From Bacteroidia bacterium (lineage in GTDB: Bacteria > Bacteroidota > Bacteroidia > AKYH767-A > OLB10): a stretch of DNA of 57,168 nt. The stretch is taken from assembly GCA_016788185.1 (NCBI GenBank), contig JAEUTF010000033.1, positions 1 through 57,168 of the forward strand. Direction: 5' to 3'. The notes under the pieces are model-generated. The model was not told the DNA's origin, did not search any database, and worked only from the letters and a program-made list of their open reading frames with translations. Below are positions 14,385 to 30,344 of the stretch, one piece after another. How positions within the stretch are numbered: the first letter of the stretch is position 1; every line of letters begins with the position of its first letter. The translations under genes were made by a program, and so were the position numbers.

Positions 14385-14414
14385 TAAAAAAAGACCGTCT
14401 TACGGGACGGCCTT
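14385..14414 (-). terminator. Intrinsic terminator after the triplicated-motif protein gene
   Basis: Plus-strand AAGACCGTC (14391-14399) and GACGGCCTT (14406-14414) form a 9-bp stem that is continuous, with one G-U pair, only when transcribed as the minus strand. There it is followed by a run of seven U residues. It therefore serves the gene ending at 14444. Confidence 0.8.
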
Positions 14415-14443: not shown

Positions 14444-15010
14444 TTACTCCTGAACCGATACCGGTACCATGTGGCGCAGGATATTGATTCCTTTTTCCAC
14501 CACATACGTTATCAGTACATTAAAGGTCTGACGTGTATTGACCTGGAAATGGCCGGATTTCTCTGAATTTCTGCCGGAAGCCACGCCCACGGTTGATTTC
14601 GCATTCGAACGTTCTGCCACTACGGTTACTTCGGCCAATTGGATGGAAGGAATGTACTGGCCGTTCACTTGCACAACATCGACTTTATGACCCTTCCCTT
14701 CCGGGCTCCTGAACGCAAAAGCAGGAATATCAGATGGAGTATAATTTCCTGAAGCTTTGATTGTTACTTCATTTAATTGAACGAATGGAATAAGTTGACC
14801 CTGGTACATGCTGGTTTCATAAACCCGTGCCTGGGAACCATTGGCGGAGATTTCAACCTCCTTGAGCTGGATGGATGGGATCCAGGAATTTTCGTAAAGG
14901 GCTGCTTTTACTTTTTGCTGGTTAGAAGTCATGGCGGCGTTAACCTGGATGCTGGTAAATACAGCGACTACCATTGCTAAAGCTGCGTAAGGGATCAGGG
15001 TAGTTTTCAT
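14444..15010 (-). CDS. Small exported protein with a triplicated TonB-box-like motif
   Basis: A 188-residue protein from the ATG at 15010, which follows a good promoter; longer frames lack a signal. A signal peptide covers about residues 1-26. The mature part repeats the pattern IP-x-[IV]-QL-x-EV-x-[IV]-x-A three times, at about 43-56 (WIPSIQLKEVEISA), 73-86 (LIPFVQLNEVTIKA) and 119-132 (YIPSIQLAEVTVVA), separated by polar, variable sequence. The L-x-EV-x-V-x-A core resembles the segment that opens the mature part of TonB-dependent receptors; the receptor at 27576 has ILKEVSVVES. A C-terminal segment of about 30 residues is more hydrophobic. I do not recognise the family. It is flanked by its own promoter and terminator. 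Confidence 0.75.
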   Translation of the reverse strand: MKTTLIPYAALAMVVAVFTSIQVNAAMTSNQQKVKAALYENSWIPSIQLKEVEISANGSQARVYETSMYQGQLIPFVQLNEVTIKASGNYTPSDIPAFAFRSPEGKGHKVDVVQVNGQYIPSIQLAEVTVVAERSNAKSTVGVASGRNSEKSGHFQVNTRQTFNVLITYVVEKGINILRHMVPVSVQE

Positions 15011-15052: not shown

Positions 15053-15084
15053 CAAAGATATATCTATTGGATGGTACTTTGCAA
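15053..15084 (-). promoter_or_regulatory. Bacteroidota promoter of the triplicated-motif protein gene
   Basis: On the minus strand TTG (15084-15082) is followed 21 bases later by TATCTTTG (15060-15053), matching the -33 TTG and -7 TAnnTTTG pair at normal spacing. The predicted start is near 15046, giving a leader of about 36 bases. This is the best two-part promoter in the window. Confidence 0.7.
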
Positions 15085-15208
15085 TACATAGTACCTTTAT
15101 TTTTGTAATATCATTGATTTTCAGGTACATTAATTTTTTAGAGGGCTATTTTCAAGTGCTTACATGCATGAGATGCACAAAGATTGGGCTTTGTTACAGC
15201 AAGAAAGG

Positions 15209-27575: not shown

Positions 27576-30344
27576 ATGAATTCACGTTTAGCCCTATTGA
27601 TAGTTCTCCTGATCCTGCCAGCCGTGTCCCTTGGGCAAGCGCTGAAGGGTGTGGTGAAAGACTCCAGGACCAAGGAAGCCCTGATTGGCGCCACCCTTTC
27701 CGTTAAAGGCACTTCGCTGGGTACCACCACTGATCTTGACGGGAAATTTATTCTGGAAGGCATCCCGGGCTTTCCGGCCACCCTGGTCGTGACGTATATT
27801 GGTTATGAGGCCCGGGAAGTGATAGCAAAGTCGAACAAGGAAGAGTTGATTATTTTACTGGGCACCAACGAAAAAATCCTGAAAGAAGTAAGTGTGGTGG
27901 AATCACGATTGACGGAGAAACAGCGTGAATCAGCCCTGACGGTAGAGGCCATGGACATCATTGCCATCCGGCAAACCCCTTCCGCCAACTTTTACGACGG
28001 CCTGGGTGCTTTGAAGGGGGTGGACGTCACCGCGGCCAGCCTGGGATTTAAAGTGGTAAATACAAGAGGTTTTAACAGCACTTCACCGGTCAGATCGCTA
28101 CAGATTATTGATGGAGTCGACAATCAGGCTCCCGGGCTTAATTTCTCGTTGGGGAATTTTCTGGGATCTTCTGAACTGGACATCCTCAAGGTGGATCTGA
28201 TTGTGGGGGCCAGTTCTGCATTTTACGGACCCAATGCCTTCAACGGCGTAATTTCCATGAATACCCGCAGTCCTTTTGTCAAACCCGGACTGGAAGTAAG
28301 TTATAAAACCGGATCAAGGAGTTTAATGGAAACCGCCCTGCGGTATGCCTTTGTCAAGAAAAACAAAGCGGGAGAAGAAAAGCTGGGCATGAAATTCAAT
28401 GCCTTTTACTTTAAAGCGAATGACTGGGAAGCCGACAACCGCAGCGCCACACCACAATCGAAAAGCGGGGTGGACAACCCCGGCGGATACGATGCCGTGA
28501 ATGTTTACGGTGACGAATATTACGCAGGCGGAGACTTCAGCCTTGTCCCCGCCCTGAGACCGGGGATGGGCATTATCTACCGCAGCGGGTATGCCGAAAA
28601 GGATGTTGTGGATTACAATACCCGCAACCTGAAATTAAACAGTGCCCTGCATTACAAAATCGGAAAGGAAACCGAGTTCATTGCGAGTTCAAATTTCGGA
28701 TATGGCACCACCGTGTATCAGGGCGATAACCGGTACAGTTTGAAAGACATCCTTTTCTTTCAGAACCGCCTTGAGATCCGGAAACCTGAAAAGTTCTTTT
28801 TGCGCGCCTATGTCACCAATGAAAATGCCGGCAACTCCTATGATGCGTTTTTTACGGCCCTGCTTTTACAGCGCTCCGTAAAGGATGACGCCGATTGGGT
28901 GGATGATTACACCAAGTACTTCACCGACAATCAGCTTTTCAAAGAAATCAGGGATTTCCCGGGCTATCCCCAGGCATCCCAATATCCGGATTACATCCAG
29001 TACCTGGCCGCCATCAACCCGTTCCTGTTACAGAATTACTACGACTCACTGGTGCTGTACCACTCGGGAGCGCAGGCCTATGCCAACAGCATCGGCAACC
29101 CCATCGCCGGGAACCAGGCCTACCTCCTTCCGGGCACCGCAGCCTTTGACTCTACGTTTCGGTCAATCACTTCCAGGGAAACATTTGCCGGCGGCGGATC
29201 AAAGTTTTACGACAAATCGGCGCTTTATCATGTGCATGGTGAATATAAATTCAACATCGACAGCTTTATTTTTACAGCGGGAGGAAACTATCGACAATAC
29301 CTTCCCGATTCACGCGGTACTATCTTCAGTGACACCAGCGGAAGGGTGATCCGGAACAGTGAATTTGGTGTGTACGCCGGTGCCGACAGAAAATTTTTTG
29401 ATGACAAACTGAAGATGAATGCCACCATCCGGATGGACAAGAATGAAAATTTTGACGCCCTTTTTTCTCCGGCATTATCCTGCATCTACAGCCCTGATAA
29501 AAACCATACCTTCCGCGTCTCCTTCAGTTCAGCCATCCGCAATCCAACCCTGGCCGATCAGTACCTGTACTACAAAGTCGGACGGGCCACCCTGATCGGC
29601 AACCTCAACGGATACGATTCACTGGCCACCCTCGGCTCCCTGTTCACAGGGTTGAATTACCAGAATCCCGATACGCTGGAGTACTTCAACGTCAAACCCG
29701 TACAACCTGAAGAAGTGCGAACCCTGGAAGCCGGTTACAGAGCCACCCTCTTTCAGCGCCTCTATGTGGATCTGAACGCCTATTACAGTATCTATACGAA
29801 TTTCATCGGCTATAAACTGGGCGCTGACGTATCCATTGCCCAGGGCTCTCCCCTTCCCATCTTCCTGAACAATATTTACAGGGTGGCCACCAATTCTGAA
29901 GACCGGGTCAGCACACAGGGCTTCACCATCGGCATGAATTACTTTTTCAGCAAGTTTTATTCGCTCAACGGCAATTGGTCATGGAACCAACTGGACCGCG
30001 GCGGTTCTGACGACCCACTCATACCGGCTTTCAACACACCGAAAAACAAGTTCAACATCGGCATCAGCGGAACGCAGATCGACAATAAAATCGGAAGCAA
30101 CTGGGGTTTTAACATCAATTACAAATGGGTGCAGGGTTTTTTGTTTGAGGGATCGCCCCAGTTCACCGGTGAAATTGATGATTACGGATTGCTCGACGCC
30201 CAGGTCAACAAAAAGTTTACTGAAACAAAGTGCACCATCAAACTGGGCTGTTCAAACCTCCTCGAAAACGAGCACTACGAAGTGTACGGAGGTCCGCTGA
30301 TCGGGAGGCTGTTTTACATGCAACTGCTGGTAGAGTTGAACTGA
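27576..30344 (+). CDS. TonB-dependent outer-membrane receptor
   Basis: A 922-residue receptor. A signal peptide (residues 1-21) is followed by a carboxypeptidase-regulatory-like beta-sandwich (about 22-105: LKGVVKDSRTKEALIGATLSVKG, TDLDGKFILEGIPG, VTYIGYEAREV). The TonB-box-like ILKEVSVVES comes next. The plug (about 120-235) has VNTRGFNSTSPVRSLQIIDGVDNQ and VDLIVGASSAFYGPNAFNGVISMNTR. The rest is the 22-stranded barrel, ending in GGPLIGRLFYMQLLVELN. No SusD gene follows, so this is not a standard SusCD polysaccharide pair; the substrate could be a siderophore, vitamin or peptide. It converges with priA. Confidence 0.94.
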   Translation: MNSRLALLIVLLILPAVSLGQALKGVVKDSRTKEALIGATLSVKGTSLGTTTDLDGKFILEGIPGFPATLVVTYIGYEAREVIAKSNKEELIILLGTNEKILKEVSVVESRLTEKQRESALTVEAMDIIAIRQTPSANFYDGLGALKGVDVTAASLGFKVVNTRGFNSTSPVRSLQIIDGVDNQAPGLNFSLGNFLGSSELDILKVDLIVGASSAFYGPNAFNGVISMNTRSPFVKPGLEVSYKTGSRSLMETALRYAFVKKNKAGEEKLGMKFNAFYFKANDWEADNRSATPQSKSGVDNPGGYDAVNVYGDEYYAGGDFSLVPALRPGMGIIYRSGYAEKDVVDYNTRNLKLNSALHYKIGKETEFIASSNFGYGTTVYQGDNRYSLKDILFFQNRLEIRKPEKFFLRAYVTNENAGNSYDAFFTALLLQRSVKDDADWVDDYTKYFTDNQLFKEIRDFPGYPQASQYPDYIQYLAAINPFLLQNYYDSLVLYHSGAQAYANSIGNPIAGNQAYLLPGTAAFDSTFRSITSRETFAGGGSKFYDKSALYHVHGEYKFNIDSFIFTAGGNYRQYLPDSRGTIFSDTSGRVIRNSEFGVYAGADRKFFDDKLKMNATIRMDKNENFDALFSPALSCIYSPDKNHTFRVSFSSAIRNPTLADQYLYYKVGRATLIGNLNGYDSLATLGSLFTGLNYQNPDTLEYFNVKPVQPEEVRTLEAGYRATLFQRLYVDLNAYYSIYTNFIGYKLGADVSIAQGSPLPIFLNNIYRVATNSEDRVSTQGFTIGMNYFFSKFYSLNGNWSWNQLDRGGSDDPLIPAFNTPKNKFNIGISGTQIDNKIGSNWGFNINYKWVQGFLFEGSPQFTGEIDDYGLLDAQVNKKFTETKCTIKLGCSNLLENEHYEVYGGPLIGRLFYMQLLVELN

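Follow-up and report, generated by a model that had tools for sequence, protein, structure and literature searches.

A gene on the minus strand of the window, the whole 57,168-nucleotide stretch of DNA from a Bacteroidia bacterium that was analysed, encodes a small exported protein with three motifs resembling the TonB boxes of the organism's own receptors, and has an operator in common with the padR-pspC operon of the same genome. The gene very probably belongs to a PadR/HAAS-PspC regulon, and on sequence evidence its motifs are likely to be of the TonB-box type. We tentatively read the product, with the scales just short of even, as a disordered exported multi-motif protein of this envelope-stress regulon that would dock TonB and lower TonB-dependent traffic.

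The motif gene and its flanking elements

The motif gene (14444-15010, minus strand) runs from an ATG at 15010 to a stop codon at 14446-14444, coordinates that a preliminary description had given correctly, leaving the strand unmentioned. A mechanical ORF caller places the start upstream, at 15130, but the start at 15010, as originally chosen, is to be preferred because a conserved promoter sits between the two positions and a signal peptide follows 15010. This predicted signal peptide (residues 1-25; 14936-15010, minus strand) consists, by eye, of MKTT, a hydrophobic stretch and VNA, lacks a lipobox cysteine, and includes a helix at residues 6-24 in the structural model. The promoter and terminator that the preliminary description had assigned to the gene were both recovered, the former as a conserved -7 box, TATCTTTG (15053-15060, minus strand), and the latter as a terminator-like hairpin of the intrinsic type followed by a T run (14391-14414, minus strand). 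Bacteroidota promoters have a -33/-7 consensus, and we take the box to be of the Bacteroidota type, TAnnTTTG; a sigma-70 scan of the promoter yielded nothing useful. At 13 nt from the box lies the palindromic operator GTACTATGTATTGCAAAGTAC (15074-15094, minus strand), a 21-bp palindrome, GTACTATGTATTGCAWAGTAC. Further upstream there is a TGTAAC (15193-15198, minus strand); most motif genes have such a TGTAAC, with a CGTC/CATC-TTAT-like box about 17 nt further on, possibly a second promoter of the ECF-sigma type.

Profile searches with the 188-residue protein matched no Pfam and no NCBIfam family, and no second copy was found in its own genome. The gene is flanked by an epimerase-like gene on one side and by two thioredoxin-fold genes on the other. 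Synteny was considered as a definition of the family, since G007 preserves the order epimerase, X, thioredoxin and G009 does so with genes inserted; it was rejected, as four g5 genomes have a different gene at this place and the contig of G003 breaks off there.

The three motifs outscore genuine TonB boxes

The motifs are IPSIQLKEVEISA (residues 44-56; 14843-14881), IPFVQLNEVTIKA (residues 74-86; 14753-14791) and IPSIQLAEVTVVA (residues 120-132; 14615-14653), all on the minus strand. All three had been pointed out in the preliminary description, with starts (43, 73 and 119) that are one residue off, as had the sequence ILKEVSVVES, which is indeed present in the receptor of the window (ORF 27576-30344). 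We compared them with a receptor set of 48 proteins from six genomes, comprising 18 plug-domain receptors of the same genome (from 19 plug matches, one at a contig edge being omitted) and 30 loci from five relatives, out of 101 plug matches there. A Gibbs sampler run on these receptors, blind to the motif protein, returned xLKEVxVxAxR, whose distance upstream of the plug match is 13-17 residues in most receptors and 13-41 residues across all 48.

A scoring matrix was then built from 47 receptors, excluding the receptor of the window and never having seen the motif protein, and was used to scan 236 ORFs of the genome (14 stretches plus the window; 86,449 windows of sequence). The three motifs took ranks 1, 2 and 3 (motif 1, 22.0 bits; motif 3, 21.7; motif 2, 18.3), thus outscoring every other position examined and bearing out the likeness that had been noticed by eye. 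The receptor of the window has a genuine TonB box that came fifth with 14.4 bits, below all three, and genuine boxes scored when left out had a median of 16.2 bits. With an earlier matrix, made from boxes picked by eye in the 18 receptors of the same genome, the motifs ranked 1, 3 and 4 of 17,104 positions, and when the mature protein was shuffled 20,000 times no shuffle contained three windows as good. The protein has neither a plug domain nor a beta-barrel, judging from the absence of Pfam families in its 188 residues.

Relatives and conservation of the motifs

A single-sequence scan of genome contigs retrieved no homologues, and a three-row alignment retrieved two. Protein searches recovered relatives of the protein from nine family genomes (G000, which is the genome under study, G006, G007, G008, G009, G011, G012, G013 and G017), with likeness over most of the length limited to G007 (35% identity) and G009 (28%). 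Overall, the motif gene was found in 14 of the 24 family genomes and in one genome outside the family, for a total of 17 proteins, which mostly retain two to four motifs. It was not found in the other 10 of the 24 and is therefore dispensable. Low scores belong to both proteins of G010 and to that of G005, none of which has a window at 10 bits (best of G005, 9.9); the two G010 genes are nearly identical and in tandem (L202), each with its own operator. Searched over 395 genomes of the class, a profile of the repeated unit also matches large receptor-like proteins in their box regions (G101, G137 and, in the genome under study, C202), as well as the N-termini of DUF4294 proteins.

The preliminary description had proposed that the motifs be compared in conservation with their surroundings, and the outcome differs among groups. 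In the clade of the motif protein (P0001, with G007 and G009), mature-part conservation is clearly higher in the cores than in the rest (0.53 versus 0.26), and 6 of 163 circular shifts did equally well. The effect is weak in the group formed by G006, G013, G017 and G019 (0.69 versus 0.58; 18 of 95 shifts as good) and absent in the hardly diverged pair G012 and G016 (0.92 versus 0.95; 171 of 201 shifts as good).

Residue preferences within the motif were counted omitting G016, a near copy of G012. After the leucine, the P0001 clade has K five times, N twice and A and D once each, and the 48 receptors have K in 15, D in seven and N in six. In the motifs outside this clade the same position mostly holds P (28 of 36), a residue found there in 2 of 48 receptors; this difference counts against TonB docking. 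The LPEV form occurs in proteobacterial receptors. Glutamate at the next place is found in 9/9 motifs of the P0001 clade, 22/36 of the other members and 25/48 receptors, and alanine at the last place in 8/9, 21/36 and 27/48, respectively. The G015 protein has four LPEVV motifs within 146 residues and almost no lead-in, from which it follows that the core, rather than the hairpin, is what selection keeps.

The predicted structure is probably that of a disordered chain

An AlphaFold2 model computed from a three-sequence alignment has a mean pLDDT of 32.6 and shows no confident fold. It draws three short hairpins in the lead-ins, at residues 36-45, 66-75 and 111-122, and, by DSSP of the same low-confidence model, a C-terminal amphipathic helix (residues 159-179; 14474-14536, minus strand) with a hydrophobic moment of 0.5. 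The preliminary description had reasoned that burial of the motifs in a folded core would speak against contact with TonB; no such burial is seen, a weak observation at this mean pLDDT and with three sequences. The model fits, weakly, a protein that is probably an exported, disordered chain of short motifs. Among solved structures, a 25-residue profile of the unit gave a best E of 0.12, which is not convincing.

The motif gene has an operator in common with padR-pspC operons

The palindrome is common to the upstream regions of nine motif genes, clear in eight and degenerate in G011, even though the encoded proteins are hardly alike. We searched for it in whole genomes of the order (42 genomes, at most three mismatches, each palindrome counted once) and found 53 distinct sites in 35 genomes, compared to one match for a reversed control pattern. 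Reading the DNA downstream of all 53 sites placed 36 ahead of a padR gene, within 1.5 kb, and 14 ahead of motif genes, leaving three that fit neither (G012:C96, G003:C50 and G036:C54) and that we take as chance. A TAnnTTTG box follows the palindrome at 47 sites, nearly always at 13 nt; it is missing at one padR site (G003), at two sites of motif genes (G008 and G011:C151) and at the three sites fitting neither, although G003:C50 presents a box when the other strand is read with four mismatches. At padR sites, a PspC-type gene comes after padR wherever reading was continued.

The genome under study has exactly two operator sites, one at the motif gene and one at the padR-pspC operon on contig C21, each 13 nt from its -7 box, and the gene following padR encodes HAAS, PspC, LiaI-LiaF-TM and Toast-rack domains. 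In three genomes (G005, G011 and G035) the motif gene itself opens the padR operon; G035 belongs to another family and its operon-opening protein carries a single motif. In seven genomes of the family of G035, this first slot is held by a DUF2807 (Toastrack) gene. Profiles of the PSP domains (PspC, Toastrack, HAAS and LiaI-LiaF-TM) had no match in any of the six motif proteins tested out of 17 (P0001, G015, G005, G016, G035 and G011). The PadR-HAAS-PspC-Toastrack layout has been proposed (PMC11237479) as a membrane signalling route alternative to two-component systems. Since the motif gene has its operator in common with the padR-pspC operon, it points to envelope stress; binding of the operator by PadR itself is suggested by the position of the sites, 36 of 53 of which precede padR. 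Some of these loci have further features: G023 has two padR-pspC operons (L184 and L205), both with the operator; a gene for a small exported protein, SnoaL-like by eye, lies after padR-pspC in G000 and G009 (L208:2595 onward and L196); and in G013 (L195) the PadR frame, compared with that of G006, changes near its end in a way that resembles a frameshift or an assembly error.

The operator also allowed the motif to be recovered independently of protein similarity. Eight motif proteins were obtained through the operator or its operon rather than by protein search (G005, two in G010, the second of G011, G015, G016, G019 and G035), with the proviso that G016, as a near copy of G012, is not wholly independent. 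In these proteins 11 of 1,131 windows reached at least 10 bits, compared to 10 of 86,231 in the background. None did in the regulon neighbours, which were chosen by regular expression from 36 loci: 26 PadR proteins (2,698 windows), 33 HAAS-PspC proteins (11,010) and six DUF2807-like proteins (1,199).

A possible link between envelope stress and TonB

On the interpretation that we propose, PadR would occupy the operator and repress the motif gene until stress, detected by way of the HAAS-PspC-Toastrack protein of the membrane, relieved this repression. The polypeptide would arrive in the periplasm, where its motifs may pair with the beta-sheet that the C-terminal domain of TonB provides, and the several boxes of each chain would occupy or cluster TonB; TonB-dependent traffic would then fall and would draw less on the proton-motive force of the damaged membrane. 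Matches to TonB_C number four in the genome. We regard binding to TonB as an evenly balanced proposition. It is less likely than not that the protein regulates or gauges the TonB motor under stress, its tandem boxes capturing TonB when the membrane is failing, and it is somewhat doubtful that the protein serves as a TonB decoy or throttle. A TonB-box pentapeptide reportedly inhibits TonB in E. coli.

In PMC11658791, TonB is described as limiting and as serving many receptors, with 300-1000 TonB against up to 14,000 FepA per cell in E. coli, and its rationing by cells is given as an open question. Several boxes on one chain would limit TonB because, by these E. coli numbers, it is scarcer than its receptors. 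The Psp response of E. coli serves the proton-motive force (PMC3068692), and a multi-box chain could therefore ration TonB under stress. If this holds, a TonB-box-repeat protein controlled by an envelope-stress switch would be the cell's own device for TonB rationing and an endogenous multi-box TonB ligand, linking a PSP-type response directly to TonB energetics and providing an output for the PspC systems of Bacteroidota, which are poorly understood. The titles and abstract openings that we surveyed, preprints and subscription papers being outside the scope, contained no endogenous protein with several TonB boxes.

The association with the regulon also suits an unlikely alternative, in which the motifs are ligands for a domain of the stress system, such as the Toast-rack of the PspC protein, their likeness to TonB boxes reflects convergence of edge strands, and the motif protein plays the part of the DUF2807 Toastrack protein of sister genomes. 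The common operator, the operon shared in three genomes, the presence of DUF2807 in that slot in seven sister genomes and the LP at the third motif position of most members, unlike receptor boxes, fit such a role; against it, the residues of the P0001 clade at this place are K, N, D or A, as in receptors, together with its invariant E and nearly invariant A, the DUF2807-like and HAAS-PspC proteins have no window at 10 bits and so no common strand pattern, and Toastrack is proposed to be intracellular (PMC11237479) whereas the motif protein is exported. TonB-box-like motifs and the PspC regulon could also be joined by a tension gauge, in which energised TonB-ExbBD pulls a tethered multi-box chain and loss of this pull at low proton-motive force becomes the PspC signal. 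The predicted C-terminal helix could provide the tether, and the role of Psp in E. coli noted above is in keeping with it (PMC3068692), but padR-pspC occurs in many family genomes that do not have the motif gene, which is thus no required part of a sensor, and we consider a gauge of this kind decidedly improbable.

The lead-in NG-x-x-IP-x-V-x-L, which was not seen in the boxes of the receptor set and resembles the DUF4294 N-terminus, hints at a beta hairpin that serves some different purpose, and the whole unit could be an ordinary hairpin repeat (lead-in strand, NG turn, second strand) that folds or packs against something else, with no function as a linear motif. The match of the unit profile to DUF4294 N-termini and the three hairpins of the model favour such a repeat, which we nevertheless regard as quite improbable given that 26 of 30 DUF4294 segments score below 8 bits on the TonB-box matrix and one reaches at least 10, that the four motifs of G015 persist with the lead-in almost gone, and that the model lacks a confident fold. 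A chance likeness might be expected of a small, low-complexity exported protein of scattered distribution, hydrophobic alternation being common; the outcome of the shuffles and the independent recovery of the motif through the operator make it extremely improbable.

Comparison with known systems

DUF4294 proteins (PF14127) are of unknown function, occur in 54 of the 61 genomes searched (L095 at C146:48134-48589 in the genome under study; also L074-L103), and returned no literature. Their opening hairpin, NGDTIPxVxL-x-x-V-x-I, resembles the lead-in of the motif protein and, as in the latter, a short hydrophobic strand follows just after the signal peptide. Their single unit, however, precedes a helical domain over which the motif protein gives no PF14127 match, and its E-V core is mostly lost, with a low TonB-box score. 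The first gene of the DUF2807 type occupies the same slot before padR and likewise encodes an exported protein of about 200 residues; it differs in having no detected sequence likeness and no TonB-box-like windows, and the motif proteins tested have no Pfam match.

Colicin M and other TonB-box bacteriocins (PMC11658791) are also soluble proteins with a TonB box in a disordered segment, but they carry one box and a toxin domain and are released, whereas the motif protein has a signal peptide, several boxes and no toxin domain; a bacteriocin reading was dropped in view of the signal peptide and the missing toxin domain. The PSP partner systems of PMC11237479 match the regulon described here in combining padR with a HAAS-PspC-LiaI-LiaF-TM-Toast-rack protein, with an operator in common; the motif protein stands apart from them in lacking any PSP domain, and the word TonB does not occur in that paper. 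With the TonB boxes of Bacteroidota receptors (LxEVxVxA), the motifs have in common the core L, E, V, V/I and A, an expected periplasmic location and scores within the range of genuine boxes. The motif protein differs from these receptors in being a soluble chain with several boxes and neither plug nor barrel, in its NG-IP lead-in, and in the LP of most of its relatives.
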